From an uncultured Metabacillus sp. (GTDB lineage: Bacteria > Bacillota > Bacilli > Bacillales > Bacillaceae), in NCBI RefSeq assembly GCF_947503125.1, contig NZ_CANNCR010000027.1, forward strand, positions 1 to 55,518: a stretch of DNA of 55,518 nt. Direction: 5' to 3'. Numbering within the stretch: position 1 is the first letter of the stretch; every line of letters starts with the position of its first letter. Below the pieces are notes generated by a model. The model was not told the DNA's origin. It worked only from the letters and a program-made list of their open reading frames with translations, and searched no databases. Below are positions 71 to 55,205 of this stretch, one piece after another. Position numbers and translations under genes: made by a program.

Positions 71-922
71 CTATCCATTAATAACCAAACTAGAATATAA
101 ATCTTCTCGTCCATACTGCTTAATTGCTAATCCAATTTTATTTTCAACTTTGATGGATTCTTCATTTGATTCCTCTCTATTCCTATTATAAATTAAGCTA
201 TACAATAGCTCTCGAGATGATTTATCTATACAACTTAATTTTTTAATTAGAATATTTATATCCTTTACAATATCCATTGCATTGGTTGAATTTAATGACT
301 CCCCAAAATAATCTACTATAAACGTTTTTGCATTTTTAAACTTTTTTATCTCTTCTTTCTCTTCTTTAGGTAAATATCCTGTATTATATGCCAATTCGTT
401 GAGGAAATGGCCATCTATATTAGCACCTATATATTCAACTACCTCTTCAATTAATTCTTCTTTACTATTAATAATTACACTTATTAGGTCATATATATCA
501 ATAATTTGTAGTCGATACTTTTTTTTAATCACACTATCAAAAGTTTTATATTCCTTTTTTTCACCGATAATAAATACGTATAGTATTTTATTGTATTTCT
601 TGTACAGCTTTAAACTTTCATCTTCAAAAGCTGTTATAGTATCTATAATCTTTTTCCTTTTAGTACTAGAAGTAATTTGCATTGCTATCGAATTTTGTTC
701 GTCACCTAGATCTATACCTTTGTGATCCTTTTTTATCTTTTCAAGTCTTATAAGATTACTCTGTAAAACAATATTAAATAAACCAGCAAAAAATTCTTCA
801 CAATCTTTATTAATGTCTGTATAACCCGCTGATTTATTACGACTTTTTACATAGTAGTGTATTAGAGTGAGATTCTTTATTATTTTATCCACTTTTTTAT
901 TTCTATTAAACACTTTTAGCAT
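71..922 (-). CDS. SMEK-domain-like protein, fourth gene of the ABC-3C-type operon
   Basis: This 283-residue protein has an N-terminal domain (about residues 10-130) that resembles the SMEK domain found with ABC-three-component systems. It shows a D-I-N-K-D-C-E-E-F-F helix near residue 36, then I-D-L-G-D (70-74) and A-M-Q-I-T-S-S (80-86). The D...D and Q-x-T pattern is reminiscent of a divergent PD-(D/E)xK fold, but I do not see a full catalytic set. The C-terminal half is helical and unrecognised. It lies 86 bp downstream of the ATPase gene on the same strand, so it is probably the last gene of that operon. The SMEK assignment is from recalled family pattern. No signal peptide or membrane segment is visible. 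Codon use is very AT-rich like the other island genes and unlike the core genes to the right. Confidence 0.6.
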   Translation of the reverse strand: MLKVFNRNKKVDKIIKNLTLIHYYVKSRNKSAGYTDINKDCEEFFAGLFNIVLQSNLIRLEKIKKDHKGIDLGDEQNSIAMQITSSTKRKKIIDTITAFEDESLKLYKKYNKILYVFIIGEKKEYKTFDSVIKKKYRLQIIDIYDLISVIINSKEELIEEVVEYIGANIDGHFLNELAYNTGYLPKEEKEEIKKFKNAKTFIVDYFGESLNSTNAMDIVKDINILIKKLSCIDKSSRELLYSLIYNRNREESNEESIKVENKIGLAIKQYGREDLYSSLVING

Positions 923-1008
923 CTCCTACCGACATTTTATACTGCATAGAATATAGTTTTGTTTGCTTTCGAATAGAGAAATTTAAGCTTTACTCAAAAA
1001 GATTAAAG

Positions 1009-3048
1009 TTAATTTAGAGGTTTTATCGCCTTTTCATCTAACATAATAATCTTGCTATTATCTTTATCTAACGATTTGATAGTTTTCCTAGTTTCTTCAT
1101 CTTTTATAGTGATACCAATAATAACCTGGCACTTCTCTTGAGAATCTATGATATTCTTGAAAAAGTTCTTCATATCATTTGTAATGATACTTTGTTGATC
1201 CGGTTCATCAAAGATTAGTAAATTTGAATGATTACCACCAAATTGATTTGATGTTTTCATTAAAGCTAGAGTGAATGCCCATATAGCCCTAATATTATCA
1301 CTAGCTGAAGAGTCAAAAGTCATATTAAACCCATCACTCGAAGGTAATAAGCTATTCTCATCAATCTGTATAATTGATTTATCTATAATACTTTTATAGC
1401 CAAAACTATTCAAATTATTGACAAAGCTATTTCTCAAATCCTTTATAATTTTTCTATCATTAATTGAATATTTGTCATCAGGTAAACTATTCTTATTCTC
1501 CATTAACTCTCTCCACTTAATCGATAAATCTTTTATATCTTTTAATAATTTATATATTTCTTGCTCAACTTTAAATAGTTTGTCTAACTCGTTTTCTATC
1601 ATTATTTTTTCACGTATAACTTTTTCTGAAAGCTCTTCATCATTTGAATAAATGTCATTAACTATCGACTTTATAATTTTTGTCAAACTTAATATTTTAT
1701 TCTTATAGTAAGCAACTGTTTCTTGTGCCCTTTTTAATTCCTGTTTATTTGTATTTAGTCCATATTCCAACAATAACTTTTGTGACTCTAAGTGTTTTAT
1801 GTTCTCCTCAATACTCATAAACTCATAATCCACTTTTTGAGGTAAAAGACTATCACTAATTTCCTGATGGCAAACCGGACATTGGTTGTCGCTAGTAAAC
1901 CAGTCAGCAGAAGATCCCATTTTTTTAAGTTTTAAAATATCCTTATTATTTATAATATCGTTGTTAATTATATCCAAGCTATTTAACAAAGAATTAATAC
2001 TTCCTTCTTTAAATATTAATTCATCTTGTGTGCTTGCTAGTTCAGATTCATATTTTGATACTAAACTTTGTAACTTAATAAGATCATTTTGCAACTCATC
2101 ATTTATTTCTCCAATTTTAATATTTCTCTGCATATAGTTATTTAATTTATTTTTTGTGTTATTGATATAATCACCAAGTTTTAATTCTTTACCTTCATCA
2201 TTAATTTTGTATATACTTACTTTCTTTATTAATTCATCTTCTAGGATTTTCGGTGAAGTGGGCACTCCATAAAGTTTACAATTTATCTCATATAGTTCTC
2301 TATTAATTAGTTTAAGTTTGTTTGTCCATAGATTAGTTATATAGTTTTCTGTCTCTTTATACTTAATTCTCAATTTCTCATTCTTTAATGAATCTAACCC
2401 TAAAAGAAACTCGATAACTCTTTTCTTTGGTTCTTTAATTTTAAAATATGTTGGTAATGTAGCTAATATATTAGACCATCCTCTTTTTTGTTCAATAAAC
2501 ATAGCTGAAAAAACTACTTGTAGATACAACTTTCTATCATTGTCTTCATACGATGGTACTAGAGGTAGAGACCAACCAAGAAATTCTTCCAAATAATAAT
2601 GGAACCCTTTTAAATTTGTTGCCGAACCTGGTGAGTGTAAATACATATCATCCGATTTTACAAAAGTCTGTTCAATTTGCTTAATATCACCATAATATAC
2701 AGTTACTAAATTTGAATCCACATTCGGTTTATTAGCTGATCTATTTATTGTTATGACCTTTCCTAACTCGTTTTCGACTTCTAAGTAAAAATTAGACTCT
2801 ATTACTGCAATTTCCTTACCGTTATACTCAACTGCCTTTTTGAAAACAGGTTTTAAAGTTTTCTCCTTTCTCCCCCCAATTAGTTCCTCAAGCCCAAGAC
2901 AGTAATAGATAGCCTCCAAACAAGAGCTTTTACCTTGGGTATTTTCATTACTTGCAATAAAAGTTACTTTTTTATCAAAGATCTCATCAACTCCATAGTT
3001 ACCATCTACTGTAACAACTACGATTTTCAACCTATTAATTTTTAACAT
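1009..3048 (-). CDS. Rad50/SMC-like ATPase of an ABC-three-component system
   Basis: An SMC/Rad50-type ABC ATPase, 679 residues from the preferred start. Walker A is N-E-N-T-Q-G-K-S-S (about residues 34-42). Two long charged coiled-coil stretches flank a zinc hook C-P-V-C near residue 390. A degenerate signature region reads S-A-S-D-N-I-R near 583, and Walker B is L-L-I-F-D-E-P near 613. This arrangement matches the ATPase of ABC-3C conflict systems more than housekeeping RecN or SbcC. The open frame extends upstream to 3108, but the ATG at 3048 has a GGAG eight bases before it and begins directly with the conserved beta strand. It overlaps the end of the middle-component gene by 14 bp, which suggests translational coupling. 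It probably senses a nucleic-acid or invader state and gates the effector protein; that role is inferred from the family. Confidence 0.82.
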   Translation of the reverse strand: MLKINRLKIVVVTVDGNYGVDEIFDKKVTFIASNENTQGKSSCLEAIYYCLGLEELIGGRKEKTLKPVFKKAVEYNGKEIAVIESNFYLEVENELGKVITINRSANKPNVDSNLVTVYYGDIKQIEQTFVKSDDMYLHSPGSATNLKGFHYYLEEFLGWSLPLVPSYEDNDRKLYLQVVFSAMFIEQKRGWSNILATLPTYFKIKEPKKRVIEFLLGLDSLKNEKLRIKYKETENYITNLWTNKLKLINRELYEINCKLYGVPTSPKILEDELIKKVSIYKINDEGKELKLGDYINNTKNKLNNYMQRNIKIGEINDELQNDLIKLQSLVSKYESELASTQDELIFKEGSINSLLNSLDIINNDIINNKDILKLKKMGSSADWFTSDNQCPVCHQEISDSLLPQKVDYEFMSIEENIKHLESQKLLLEYGLNTNKQELKRAQETVAYYKNKILSLTKIIKSIVNDIYSNDEELSEKVIREKIMIENELDKLFKVEQEIYKLLKDIKDLSIKWRELMENKNSLPDDKYSINDRKIIKDLRNSFVNNLNSFGYKSIIDKSIIQIDENSLLPSSDGFNMTFDSSASDNIRAIWAFTLALMKTSNQFGGNHSNLLIFDEPDQQSIITNDMKNFFKNIIDSQEKCQVIIGITIKDEETRKTIKSLDKDNSKIIMLDEKAIKPLN

Positions 3049-3547
3049 CAAAGTCACTCCACACTGTTTTAAGTTGTTCAATTTTCTCTTCAGTAAGTCT
3101 ATCTGCAATTATATTAAGCTGTTTCTTCTCTAATAAAAAAATCTCTTTATCTTTTATAATTTCGTTTATAAATATTTTCCCTTTATTTGACAACTTGAAA
3201 AGACCATTCTTTTGCCTGTGAATTATTTTTTCAGCAATCGCAAAATCAATCCCCCTATTTACAGAAGGATCAAACCTTATAATGTCTAAGGGGGATTTTC
3301 CATCATTCAGGAACGTTATTAATTTTTCAAATTCCTTTCGGGAACTAATCGCAGTTGAAATTATCTGGACTTTTAATAGTGAACTGGCTCGTTTCCCACC
3401 ACATATATGTAAAATTAAACTAATTTGTGAAATCATATATAAAATCCTATACTTATAGGGAACTGAAATAGCCCTTTTATTTATACGAATAATTTCTACA
3501 TTCTTGGGTATAATAGAATCCATACTAATTTTATGCCTCCAATTCAC
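3035..3547 (-). CDS. ABC-3C middle component, winged-helix-type adaptor
   Basis: A 170-residue protein between the REase-like gene and the ATPase gene, exactly where ABC-three-component systems carry their small middle component. About residues 30-135 read as a helical, winged-helix-like fold: a G-G-K-R-A-S-S-L-L-K loop, then R-K-E-F-E-K-L-I-T-F-L, then I-A-E-K-I-I-H and a wing-like K-L-S-N-K-G-K. No catalytic motif is visible, so an adaptor or DNA-binding role is likely. The GTG at 3547 overlaps the TGA of the upstream gene (GTGA). The ATG at 3523 is an alternative, with GGAGG 12 bases upstream. The identification rests mainly on gene position and fold impression. Confidence 0.65.
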   Translation of the reverse strand: MNWRHKISMDSIIPKNVEIIRINKRAISVPYKYRILYMISQISLILHICGGKRASSLLKVQIISTAISSRKEFEKLITFLNDGKSPLDIIRFDPSVNRGIDFAIAEKIIHRQKNGLFKLSNKGKIFINEIIKDKEIFLLEKKQLNIIADRLTEEKIEQLKTVWSDFDVKN

Positions 3548-4485
3548 CTAAATTCTAGTGGACAATCAGCTAGCCAGGCACTAACCAAGTTATTCTTTAA
3601 TTCTGAGATTGAAGTAGCTGTAATTACCTCTCCAAAAGCTTCTTTTAACTTAAGTTCGAAATCAACTAGCAACTGCTGAAATAAGGTATTATTTAAAGTC
3701 CTACTAATATTTAAATCACACTTCATTTGTGCTTCGACTTGAAGTGTATGAGAAAATTGAATTATATTTTCATACAAAACAGGACTATTTATACGTAAAT
3801 TATCAAGTGTTTCTATTCCTTTTGTATAAAAGCTAACATATAAATTCACTAGTCTCTTATAAGGCATCTCATCAACAGTTCCATCCTCTTTTATCAATAT
3901 TGCTTTTAATTTTCTCTGTATGTTTTCTAACTTTTCAGATGGACATAAACTCCAATCAACTTCTCCAGTATGTCTAAAAGCAAAATCTAATTTATAGTCT
4001 TTTTTTAAGTTTAACAACATTGATAATTCCTCAAAAAAGTCAGCTTCAACTTTTATTAGTATTTCAAAATTGTCCGAAATATGGGTTAGACCTTTTTCAA
4101 TTTTACTTTTTATAACATCCTTTTTCTTATTTGTTCGATGAATCAATATCCTTTTATCCCTATATTCCGGTATAACAAAGTGCCATTCTCTAACTTTATT
4201 TATCCCTATACTTCTTAATCCGTCACCATTGTTAATTAATTTATTTAGGTCATCCGTCATCTTTTTTCTTTGATGTTTATATAGATCATCATCATTATAT
4301 TCTTTTTCTGGATAGTAACACTGGTATACTATACCACTACTAGTAAAACCTTCTATACCAAAATCCCCTTTATAATTAGCTGGAACTGTGTGGAATCCCT
4401 TGGACTGATATCTTTTTCTATAACACTCACTACATATATCTTCCCATAAGTTTGCATCTATCTTCTTATCTAGCAAATTTAACAA
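3544..4485 (-). CDS. REase-fold-like effector protein of ABC-3C-type operon
   Basis: First gene of the operon, 313 residues. The N-terminal domain contains G-D-F-G-I-E-G-F (40-47) followed by I-V-Y-Q-C-Y-Y-P-E (52-60). This is the D...(E/Q)x pattern of divergent restriction-endonuclease-like domains associated with ABC-3C systems, with D41, E45 and Q55 as the acidic/polar set. The C-terminal half is a helical domain without known motifs, plausibly the part that contacts the middle component. Translation probably starts at TTG 4485, with AAGGAG eight bases upstream. The gene follows a strong hairpin terminator at 4546-4589, so its promoter should lie between about 4490 and 4545. That stretch is very AT-rich and I cannot fix a -35/-10 pair in it. 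Nuclease activity is a family inference. Confidence 0.62.
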   Translation of the reverse strand: MLNLLDKKIDANLWEDICSECYRKRYQSKGFHTVPANYKGDFGIEGFTSSGIVYQCYYPEKEYNDDDLYKHQRKKMTDDLNKLINNGDGLRSIGINKVREWHFVIPEYRDKRILIHRTNKKKDVIKSKIEKGLTHISDNFEILIKVEADFFEELSMLLNLKKDYKLDFAFRHTGEVDWSLCPSEKLENIQRKLKAILIKEDGTVDEMPYKRLVNLYVSFYTKGIETLDNLRINSPVLYENIIQFSHTLQVEAQMKCDLNISRTLNNTLFQQLLVDFELKLKEAFGEVITATSISELKNNLVSAWLADCPLEFR

Positions 4486-44978: not shown

Positions 44979-45115
44979 GAAAAGCGGAAGCGCCTTGTTC
45001 AGCCCCGACAAGCATAAGCCGCTCAGGAATAGAAGACGTTCTTCGTCTTCAATTCCTGAGTGGCTTATGACTCGAGGGGCTAGGCGCTGCAGCTAGACAT
45101 CAAGACTAAGTACAA
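44979..45115 (+). repeat. dispersed palindromic repeat, copy D
   Basis: GAAAAGCGGAAGCGCCTTG...GGGGCTAGGCGCTGCAGCTAG, with hairpin CTCAGGAAT-a-GAAGAC / GTCTTC-A-ATTCCTGAG. It fills much of the trxB-TPR gap (44822-45148), which holds nothing else apart from the trxB promoter region. Confidence 0.85.
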
Positions 45116-48950: not shown

Positions 48951-49086
48951 GAGAAAAGCGCAAGCGTCTTGATTAGCCTAGGACAAATAAGCCAATTTAG
49001 AAAAGAAGGCGTTCTTTCCCTTCAATTCTAAATTGGCTTATGACCTCAAGTGGCTAGGAGCAGGAGCTAGACACAAAAACTATGTT
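48951..49086 (+). repeat. dispersed palindromic repeat, copy E
   Basis: GAGAAAAGCGCAAGCGTCTTG...CAGGAGCTAGACACAAAAAC, with hairpin arms CCAATTTAGAA and TTCTAAATTGG. It lies in the 376-bp gap between two minus-strand genes (48790-49165), which otherwise contains only A/T-rich DNA. Confidence 0.8.
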
Positions 49087-49932: not shown

Positions 49933-50514
49933 TTAATTATTACCTGTATCAGGCCCAGGTCCTGGATCAATCTTAAATGGAACTTGTTTTGTTGAAACTG
50001 TTTTAAACTCTTTTACTAGTTTATTATATTTTACATCATTTTCAATGAGAAGGTCACCGTATTCCGGAACAAGGGTATGGAAGTTCTGTTCTTTGTTGTG
50101 TTTCGTAACGAATAAATATTTTTTTCCTTCCTCTAAAAGCTTATCATGTTCAATAACGTACGTTTTCTTTTCTTCCTCATCATAGCCACCTTGCTGGTTG
50201 ACAACAATGGTACCAGTCAATTCGCCTTTAAGATTTTTCTTTACTTCAACAGCGAATTGCGTTTCGGGTAATGTGTTTAATTTTTTTGAGCCTTTTTTCT
50301 TTACAACTTTTCCAACAAATACATTGTCGGCCCAGCCAACTAATTGATTACGATCAGACAAATCAAGGGCAGAGGTTGTGTGGACAATAACCGTTTCTGG
50401 CTCTTGTTTGTTTTCAAGAGCTTGATCCTTAAATGAATTGGCATTAGCATAAGAAAAAATACCAACTAAGGCAAGGATGATGCCTGCTGTTATCATGAGA
50501 GCTTTTTTATTCAT
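49933..50514 (-). CDS. secreted paralogue of the anti-sigma ectodomain
   Basis: A 193-residue exported protein. Residues 1-26 form a signal peptide or N-terminal anchor, ending S-Y-A-N-A. Residues about 52-185 match the extracellular domain of the anti-sigma factor at 51260-51913 throughout: L-V-G-W-A-D-N-V-F-V-G-K-V, P-E-T-Q-F-A-V-E-V, K-G-E-L-T-G-T-I-V-V-N-Q-Q-G-G-Y-D, H-T-L-V-P-E-Y-G-D-L-L-I-E-N and V-P-F-K-I-D-P. It begins 15 bp after the protease stop, with GGGAGGGG upstream, so protease and paralogue are one operon. I infer a role as protease partner, inhibitor or soluble decoy for the sigma switch. The domain itself has no function I can name. Confidence 0.85.
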   Translation of the reverse strand: MNKKALMITAGIILALVGIFSYANANSFKDQALENKQEPETVIVHTTSALDLSDRNQLVGWADNVFVGKVVKKKGSKKLNTLPETQFAVEVKKNLKGELTGTIVVNQQGGYDEEEKKTYVIEHDKLLEEGKKYLFVTKHNKEQNFHTLVPEYGDLLIENDVKYNKLVKEFKTVSTKQVPFKIDPGPGPDTGNN

Positions 50515-50529
50515 TATCCTTTCCCCTCC

Positions 50530-51021
50530 CTACCATAAACTGCGGTAATCGCTTTTGTCATGTGATTGCGGTGTATGGGCCATGTCGCTGACATATTTGG
50601 CCATAACCTGACCTGAGTAACTGTGGGCAAGACCTAGCGCATGCCCCGTTTCATGAATGCCGACAATTTCTTCTTTACGATCCCCATAAGGCACCATATA
50701 TTTCTTGTTGAAATAGATTTCATCTGCACCTGATGTATTTGTATATAAACCAGCCCATGTTACGTCATTTCTGGTTGTGCTCATATATGTGACATCTTCA
50801 TAAACCCAAGAGTCGTCTGGGGCGATATTAATTCTGCCGACACTATTCCACTGACTGCGAGCATGACTGATCGCATTATTGTAGCCAGTCTCGTCACCAT
50901 AACGAATTTCTCCATCATCAACAGAGTCATAACCTAAAAAGTGAGCCTTCGTACTAGTTGGAACTAGCAGCATCGTAAAAACTAAAGCACCAATGACAAG
51001 GGTGTACAGCTTTGCCTTCAT
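50530..51021 (-). CDS. secreted matrixin-type zinc metalloprotease
   Basis: A 163-residue small metalloprotease. A signal peptide (1-26) ends P-T-S-T-K-A. The zinc-binding motif H-E-T-G-H-A-L-G-L-A-H (113-123) is a perfect HExxHxxGxxH metzincin signature, and Q-V-M-A-K-Y at 128-133 gives the Met-turn. The mature domain is only about 137 residues with no propeptide or C-terminal domain, close to a minimal matrixin. ATG 51021 follows AGGAGAGGG; the longer frame to 51069 is not expected to be used. It is co-transcribed with the secreted ectodomain paralogue and lies just downstream of the sigma/anti-sigma pair. Confidence 0.92.
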   Translation of the reverse strand: MKAKLYTLVIGALVFTMLLVPTSTKAHFLGYDSVDDGEIRYGDETGYNNAISHARSQWNSVGRINIAPDDSWVYEDVTYMSTTRNDVTWAGLYTNTSGADEIYFNKKYMVPYGDRKEEIVGIHETGHALGLAHSYSGQVMAKYVSDMAHTPQSHDKSDYRSLW

Positions 51022-51218
51022 TTCATCCCTCTCCTTTTGATCATTTTTGTATGCTTTTAGTGATAACAAGAAACTGAAAACTATGTAAAATAATTCCCTC
51101 TCTTTTTATCACCTGTTTACAGTATTCAAAAATTTCATCACATATCCTGATTAATTGTAAAATATTGAAAAATAAGGATAATATCTCAAAATGTCCAAAT
51201 TTTGTAGTGCTTTTTACA

Positions 51219-51254
51219 TAAAAAAACAGTCCAACCAAAGAAGCTGGACTGTTT
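51219..51254 (-). terminator. intrinsic terminator after the anti-sigma gene
   Basis: AAACAGTCCA and TGGACTGTTT form a ten-bp stem with a long T-run on the minus strand, six bp past the anti-sigma stop. The protease operon downstream therefore needs its own promoter in 51022-51218. Confidence 0.85.
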
Positions 51255-51259
51255 GCTTT

Positions 51260-51913
51260 TCAAGGCTCAATCTTATAAGGAATTTGATTTTCATACGCTT
51301 TTTTATAGGTTTCGATTAACTCTTTCTGCTTCTCCTCATTTTCTATTAATACATCACCATAAGCAGGCACCAACGTATGCCAATTCTCTGATTCAAGGTA
51401 TTTTGTTGCAAACAAATAAGTTTTTCCAGGCTTTATGAGGGAATCTCCATTTATAACCGTTAATTGATTTCCATCATAGCCGCCATTCTGATTGATGATA
51501 ATGGTTCCGTTTAAATCACCTTTAATCGTTTCGAGCACCTTTACGTTGAATTGGGTTTCTGGAAACCCGCTGATTTTCTTTGTCCCAGCTTGTTCGATGA
51601 CTTTACCAATAAATACATGATCGGCATAACCTACCAGTTTACGAGGATCACTTACATCTACTTCATAACCCACATCCATGTTTATAATTTCTGTTTCCGA
51701 TGGTTGATTGACCATGTAATAAGTTCCAGTAAATAATCCAATCATCAATATTGCAGCCGATATCAAATAAGAGATACTATATTTTATCCTTTTTGAGTTT
51801 TTCCGTGGTAAATTTGCAAGTGTTTGATCGATTTTAGTAGAAATAGAATCTGGTACCTCAATTTTAAGGTGCTCCTCTTTTAATCTGGATAATTGCTCAT
51901 CAAGCTTGTTCAT
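51260..51913 (-). CDS. membrane anti-sigma factor with duplicated ectodomain
   Basis: A 217-residue single-pass protein. The cytoplasmic part (1-45) is short and charged. A membrane helix spans about 46-68 (S-I-S-Y-L-I-S-A-A-I-L-M-I-G-L-F). The outside domain (about 80-217) shares its whole length with the secreted protein at 49933-50514. The gene overlaps the end of the ECF sigma gene by 14 bp, so the pair is translationally coupled, which is the classical sigma/anti-sigma arrangement. There is no HxxxCxxC zinc anti-sigma motif. Release of the sigma factor by proteolysis of the ectodomain is inferred by analogy with SigW-RsiW. Confidence 0.82.
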   Translation of the reverse strand: MNKLDEQLSRLKEEHLKIEVPDSISTKIDQTLANLPRKNSKRIKYSISYLISAAILMIGLFTGTYYMVNQPSETEIINMDVGYEVDVSDPRKLVGYADHVFIGKVIEQAGTKKISGFPETQFNVKVLETIKGDLNGTIIINQNGGYDGNQLTVINGDSLIKPGKTYLFATKYLESENWHTLVPAYGDVLIENEEKQKELIETYKKAYENQIPYKIEP

Positions 51914-52430
51914 GTATATCCACTCCTTTCTCCGAACTCAAGGATTTTTCCAACTGTTTCTTTGCACGGTGAAGTCTTGTTTTGACAGTCCCTACGGGTA
52001 TATCCACAATATCAGAAATTTCCTTTATAGATAAATCTTCGAAATAAAATAAAACAATAACGGTACGTAATTCATTTGACAGTTTGTTGACGGCATCCCG
52101 TATTTCAACATGGTGGTAATCCTTTTCAACCCTAGGATAATCCTCCCACGTATCAGTTGGAATCACTCGCTTCTTCTTTCGTAAAATCGCATAGCACTCG
52201 TTTATGAGAATACGTATGATCCAAGTTTTGAAATAATCTGGTTCTCTTAAGGTTTTGATTGAATCAAACGCCTTTAAAATCGTTTCTTGAATCGAATCTT
52301 CGCATTCAACCTCTGATCTTAAAATAGATAAAGAGATACGATACAATTGTGCTTGATGACTTTTTATCAGCTGGCTAAATGCTTCTTTATCACCTTTTTG
52401 CGCCCTTATGACGTTATTATAGTCTGACAA
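51900..52430 (-). CDS. ECF-type RNA polymerase sigma factor
   Basis: An extracytoplasmic-function sigma-70 factor of about 176 residues. Region 2 has D-K-E-A-F-S-Q-L-I near 15, Y-R-I-S-L-S-I-L, and C-E-D-S-I-Q-E-T-I-L-K-A-F near 43. W-I-I-R-I-L-I-N-E-C-Y near 70 ends that part. Region 4 has L-S-I-K-E-I-S-D-I-V-D-I-P-V-G-T-V-K-T-R-L-H-R-A near 130-153. Two consecutive TTG codons (52433 and 52430) are possible starts, and the second is better spaced from GGAGG. I could not find a matching ECF promoter with certainty upstream of this gene or of the protease operon. Confidence 0.93.
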   Translation of the reverse strand: MSDYNNVIRAQKGDKEAFSQLIKSHQAQLYRISLSILRSEVECEDSIQETILKAFDSIKTLREPDYFKTWIIRILINECYAILRKKKRVIPTDTWEDYPRVEKDYHHVEIRDAVNKLSNELRTVIVLFYFEDLSIKEISDIVDIPVGTVKTRLHRAKKQLEKSLSSEKGVDIHEQA

Positions 52431-52570
52431 CAAGAACCCTCCCTTCTGTTCCTACACGTTAGATAATGCAAACACCTTAAAAGTTCATCTTAATTTAAAA
52501 AATTTTTTTAAGTTAGTTACTCTTATAATAGGATAAAATTTCCTCACAGAGGCTTTTTTATATCTTAAAA

Positions 52571-55082: not shown

Positions 55083-55205
55083 ACAAAAGTGCAAGCGCCT
55101 CGTTCAGCCTAGGGCAAATAAGACGATTTAGAATAGAAGGCGATCTTTGCCTTCAATTCTAAATTGCCTAGACCCTAGAGGGGCTAGGCGCTGGAGTTGG
55201 ATGTC
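55083..55205 (+). repeat. dispersed palindromic repeat, copy F
   Basis: ACAAAAGTGCAAGCGCCTCG...GGGGCTAGGCGCTGGAGTTGG, with hairpin GATTTAGAAT-a-GAAGGC / GCCTTC-A-ATTCTAAATT. It begins right after the stop of the haloperoxidase-like gene. The rest of the gap to 55451 is A/T-rich with no other signal. Confidence 0.85.

Follow-up and report, generated by a model that had tools for sequence, protein, structure and literature searches.

A predicted TIMP-like domain shared by an ECF anti-sigma factor and the secreted partner of a neighbouring matrixin in an uncultured Metabacillus

Listeria monocytogenes carries a metzincin, Mtz, with a lipoprotein partner, Tim (LMRG_00713/LMRG_00714), and the published account states that Mtz cuts Tim, that about 50 N-terminal residues are lost, with a cut region at about residues 49-55, and that an inactive Mtz leaves Tim uncut (PMC8235301). 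The same text reports similar metzincin-Tim pairs across Gram-positives, often near mobile genes, mtz-tim genes on Listeria prophages and, for other Firmicutes including Bacillus, Tims that are secreted, so that the lipoprotein form is variable outside Listeria. A second point of comparison is RsiV, which binds and inhibits lysozyme and thereby frees sigma V (PMC5014341). Here we describe a locus in a 55,518-nucleotide stretch of DNA from an uncultured Metabacillus sp. (contig NZ_CANNCR010000027.1; the whole stretch is called the window), in which a protease-partner pair of this known kind adjoins a sigma switch equipped with the partner's domain.

The four genes of the module are all on the minus strand. 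The first encodes an extracytoplasmic function (ECF) sigma factor of 177 amino acids (51900..52433; Pfam sigma70 r2 and r4_2), with a TTG start at 52433 or an alternative TTG at 52430; its best NCBIfam match is TIGR02954 (172 bits, below the cut-off of 188.5), and the SigV profile gives 122.9 bits against a cut-off of 190, which is not reached. The anti-sigma gene (51260..51913; 217 amino acids; assigned from the open reading frame, profile comparison and hydropathy) overlaps it by 14 bp (51900-51913) and encodes a cytoplasmic part (residues 1-49; 51767-51913), a membrane span predicted from hydropathy (residues 50-68; 51710-51766), a juxtamembrane segment (residues 69-85; 51659-51709) and an ectodomain, the Tim domain (residues 86-217; 51263-51658). 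Directly past its stop, between the two operons, is a terminator-like hairpin with a T-run (51254-51224; 13 pairs, 5 of them G-C), sites of this kind numbering 6 in 3 kb versus 1.6 in shuffles. The second operon opens with a matrixin of the Mtz type (50530..51021; 163 amino acids; ATG at 51021), which has a signal-like N-terminus, reaches 30.9 bits with Pfam matrixin (PF00413; cut-off 24) and carries the HEXXHXXGXXH zinc site as HETGHALGLAH (residues 123-133; 50623..50655), with a Met-turn methionine, Met140, that is invariant across 16 alignment rows. Its stop is 15 nt from the start of the gene for a secreted Tim (49933..50514; 193 amino acids; signal-like stretch at residues 1-26, 50437-50514), with a GGGAGG-type site, and we therefore read the two genes as one operon. 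An earlier note on this DNA had described the overlapping sigma and anti-sigma genes with their own terminator, the minimal secreted metzincin, its operon with a secreted protein and the match of that protein to the anti-sigma ectodomain along its length; all of these observations are confirmed, while the interpretation that the note placed on them is partly supported.

The relationship between the two Tim copies is, by sequence comparison, a paralogy far beyond chance: the secreted Tim and the anti-sigma factor share 42% identity over 182 residues (E 3e-48), and within the domain 67 of 132 aligned residues (51%) are identical. No third copy was detected at E <= 1 in the draft genome of 244 contigs. 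A recent local duplication of the ectodomain is unsupported: the tree is open at the relevant forks and its bootstrap did not converge, and the identity between the two window copies (51%) does not exceed that of the anti-sigma ectodomain to its counterparts in genomes G432 (52%) and G094 (60%).

Searches against Pfam, NCBIfam and PDB sequences gave the ectodomain no name. Structure comparison of a model, built from an alignment that left out one diverged row (L062:1151-1699), found a netrin/TIMP OB fold, and on this basis the Tim domain is TIMP-like in its modelled fold. The TIMP family is characterised by an N-terminal CxC and disulfides, and neither is present here, as both window copies have 0 cysteines; for the same reason the secreted Tim is without a lipobox. 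None of 19 family members matched Pfam TIMP (PF00965). In comparisons with two bacterial Pfam-TIMP proteins, hhalign gave Tim 22.8% (E 9e-4) and the distant Tim group 0.4%, and a broad Tim profile matched one of the two (E 6e-4) and not the other. Two bacterial proteins above the Pfam TIMP cut-off (L108 and L109) start with CxC and have a hydrophobic stretch at the C-terminal end, and no matrixin was seen within the 3.3 kb inspected around them.

Profile comparison also indicates that the ectodomain is homologous to the Listeria Tim LMRG_00714. The published locus is recognisable in another strain (L173), whose ortholog Tim, together with six distant members in a 7-row group, aligns with the ectodomain profile (hhalign 97.9%, E 4.6e-13); the ortholog alone gave no match with our A5 profile, and a different Listeria Tim is matched by the anti-sigma factor directly (E 1e-7). 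L. monocytogenes has a second matrixin-Tim pair near lmo1656 (L163:4485-5615, L164:4495-5624), and the family profile matches the Tim of this pair (E 2e-41 and 2e-44) but not that of the published one. The same Listeria record contains a lone, diverged Tim-like gene (L168:1237-1845, E 0.003) with no matrixin beside it.

The matrixin-Tim pair recurs across phyla. With the window matrixin as query, 6 of the 397 genomes of the order were matched, its own included, and a Tim gene was the next gene downstream in all 6. A first scan of genome contigs with the anti-sigma factor as query gave no match, and a scan with matrixin rows recovered at least 17 confirmed matrixin loci among named genomes. The loci listed span Streptomyces, Rhodococcus, Lihuaxuella, Listeria, Ruminococcus and others, together with an archaeal metagenome-assembled genome of Methanimicrococcus; Tim adjoins the matrixin in 15 of the 17 listed by the first profile, and a broader profile places it there in the remaining two as well (L056, E 1.5e-4; L066, E 1.5e-7). 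The Methanimicrococcus genome (L062) holds three such pairs in tandem. Two of four viral loci, near copies of each other (L068 and L069), are matrixin-Tim pairs, and the other two hold weak matrixins without Tim. Twenty class loci, chosen by hand among the scan matches and not at random, comprised 13 with matrixin then Tim, 1 with Tim then matrixin, 2 fusions, 2 with matrixin alone (the matrixins without Tim are L152 and L156) and 2 with Tim alone; judged by length, L144 and L051 are one contig, as are L054 and L016. Both domains are fused in one open reading frame at full length in L151, and also in L150, where the matrixin part is cut short and stands beside what appears by eye to be a transposase-like frame. 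The suggestion of the earlier note that the ectodomain is the partner of the protease is thus well supported by the pairing across phyla, the two fusions, the TIMP-like modelled fold and the homology to Listeria Tim, which its own metzincin is reported to cut (PMC8235301). Its statement that no such system had been described holds in part: a metzincin with a Tim partner has been published (PMC8235301), and a TIMP-like anti-sigma factor was not found in the mostly open-access literature searched. The new element is an ECF anti-sigma factor with Tim as its ectodomain.

This use of the domain is not confined to the window. A Tim domain was found at E <= 1e-3 in 32 of the 397 genomes and lies within a sigma/anti-sigma operon in 12 of these, the window's included, and beside a matrixin in 8, of which 2 are distant. 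Both settings occur in two genomes, the window's and G432, where the two operons are on different contigs; only in the window, among the 397, are they adjacent. Identity between the window sigma factor and the three other Tim-linked sigma factors compared is 34-36%, against 61-69% among those three. Compared with two Tim-linked anti-sigma factors, that of the window is 52-60% identical in the ectodomain and 24-33% in the N-terminal part, and the ectodomain is, on these alignments, the best-conserved part of the protein, so that an exchange of the domain between sigma lineages would fit.

The architecture and the TIMP-like fold are borne out by sequence and model, as are the relationship to Listeria Tim and the repeated pairing with matrixins; together they suggest a mechanism. 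The membrane anti-sigma factor, with Tim as its outer part, would hold the ECF sigma factor, and the neighbouring operon would supply secreted Mtz and free Tim. As in Listeria, Mtz would recognise the Tim domain of the anti-sigma factor and cut the short stretch that joins the domain to the membrane span; this would be the site-1 cleavage, after which a site-2 protease, for which an M50 site-2 type protease encoded in the window's genome is a candidate, would free the sigma factor. Free Tim would be a competing substrate, and the extracellular Mtz:Tim ratio would set sigma activity. We infer that the matrixin may free this sigma factor in this way, and we give the whole proposal close to, though short of, an even chance. 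Alignment puts the probable cut point, give or take a few residues, at residues 80/81 (codons 51671..51676, minus strand), which is some 12 residues beyond the predicted span on the outer side. These residues align both with the region of Tim cut by Listeria Mtz and with TIMP residue 1. In the profile alignment, the Listeria ortholog has its residues 48-54 inserted after model residue 19 and before model residue 20, and in several structures model residue 20 is the position that matches TIMP residue 1. The N-terminus of TIMP blocks the zinc, with Cys1 as zinc ligand. From both alignments, the cut would create an N-terminus at the zinc-blocking position, and cut Tim may for this reason act as a product inhibitor.

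The same fold admits a receptor that is not cut. The Tim ectodomain might bind and inhibit a metalloprotease, and binding would expose the anti-sigma factor to a host signal peptidase or another site-1 protease, much as RsiV binds and inhibits lysozyme and frees sigma V (PMC5014341). The modelled fold is that of metalloprotease inhibitors, and the N-terminal part of the anti-sigma factor, and that part only, resembles RsiV (17.2 of 250 bits, E 0.0025), as does its G094 relative (E 0.00039); the G432 relative shows no such likeness in the same profile comparison. However, the window Tim is without cysteine and hence lacks the Cys1 zinc ligand of TIMP, Listeria Mtz does cut its Tim, and the accessible part of PMC8235301 reports no inhibition by a bacterial Tim. 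We consider binding without cleavage distinctly unlikely.

Several findings weigh against the proposal that the neighbouring Mtz sets sigma activity. The letters at the inferred cut site differ from those of Listeria, and a one-chain model of matrixin and Tim, used for docking, did not resolve the interface (pTM, the predicted template-modelling score, 0.51). A search of gene neighbourhoods, proposed in the earlier note, showed that the domain recurs with the matrixin but that in 14 of the 32 genomes it stands beside neither gene, within the stretch inspected and with the first profiles, several of these copies being short or split and G404 yielding no open reading frame; a constant pairing of domain and protease is accordingly rejected. 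Among the other genomes with a Tim-type anti-sigma factor, 9 of 11 show no such matrixin, and their trigger must therefore be something else, perhaps a foreign Mtz. The four genes sit between flanks that are conserved in the sister genome G011, which holds other genes at the site (L200: by eye, a transporter-like and an erythromycin-esterase-like gene), and the anti-sigma factor is absent from all of the listed genomes of the same genus (G001-G020); the site is thus variable, and the operons could be neighbours by chance on an accessory stretch. Nor was a promoter common to both operons found; the earlier note had proposed to look for the sigma promoter upstream of 51021 and 52430. The motif AGCCAAA-N12-15-CGTCTA precedes the sigma operon in 6 of 8 genomes searched, always with N13, and has no match in the window genome; with the motif read backward as a control, the 8 genomes together hold 4 matches, of which one is in the window genome and none in G094. 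Further matches number one in G314 and three in G094 (C19:29991, C28:1530 and C69:1679, all N13 and away from the sigma operon), whose own sigma promoter departs from the strict motif; judged by the motif, these three sites are possibly targets of its Tim-linked sigma factor. The self-sensing circuit with a decoy, as the earlier note had it, is weakened by the 9 genomes without matrixin, the 14 with the domain beside neither gene and the lack of a common promoter.

Some of these findings would suit an ectodomain that watches the matrixins of phages or competitors, or unrelated host enzymes, the neighbouring pair on its variable stretch not being the trigger. The genomes without Mtz, the different content between the conserved flanks, the carriage of mtz-tim by Listeria prophages (PMC8235301) and by the viral contigs L068 and L069, and a sigma factor that has diverged further from its Tim-linked relatives than the ectodomain has from two of theirs all point this way. 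Yet the window's two operons are adjacent and co-oriented, and G432 keeps both as well, though on different contigs; we regard a sensor of foreign proteases as rather unlikely. A broader speculation, which we hold to be rather improbable, is that Tim-type anti-sigma factors form a sentinel class whose TIMP-like decoy detects matrixins of the cell itself, of neighbours or of phages, the cut freeing sigma and leaving a protease-blocking fragment; joined with Mtz and free Tim, the trio would then be a protease-based density signal.

Elsewhere in the window, the AT-rich left end (71-4485; 27-29% GC) carries a Lamassu-type defence set with a SMEK-domain protein (71-922), LmuB (1009-3108, E 3.5e-99) and LmuA (3544-4485, E 2e-22). 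Imperfect repeats, about 85-150 bp long and by eye internally symmetric as inverted sequences, are dispersed through the window, at 45014-45097, 48954-49038, 55085-55169 and further places.

Among animals, MMP and TIMP are a textbook pair. The same folds are partners in bacteria of several phyla and in one archaeal metagenome-assembled genome, and the inhibitor-like half now forms the outside portion of a transcription switch. If our proposal is correct, the locus offers a direct test of the role of a bacterial TIMP (substrate, inhibitor or sensor), adds to RsiV a second class of enzyme-sensing anti-sigma factor and provides a simple way to report matrixin activity.

In animals, TIMP/netrin-like domains (agrin NtA, PCOLCE, complement C345C; PF00965) serve in inhibition or matrix binding; the window copies share their fold in the model but have no cysteine, and the 19 family members compared have no Pfam TIMP match. 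Karilysin is a matrixin. The potempin-KLIKK pairs of Tannerella likewise consist of adjacent genes for a secreted protease, karilysin included, and a lipoprotein called its inhibitor, but the inhibitor gene comes first and the available text mentions no sigma factor (PMC7296668). SigV-RsiV of B. subtilis resembles the locus in its ECF sigma factor with r2 and r4 regions and its membrane anti-sigma factor; it differs in that the RsiV ectodomain binds the extracellular enzyme lysozyme and binding is the trigger (PMC5014341), whereas the window anti-sigma factor has no match to that ectodomain and the SigV and RsiV profiles stay below cut-off. The closest system is Listeria Mtz-Tim, also a secreted metzincin with the gene for a TIMP-like protein directly after it, and the two matrixins are related (E about 1e-9). 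In the accessible account, however, the Listeria pair is under a CI/Cro switch with a reported effect on the cell wall, its Tim is a lipoprotein where that of the window has no cysteine, and no sigma or anti-sigma factor is mentioned (PMC8235301).
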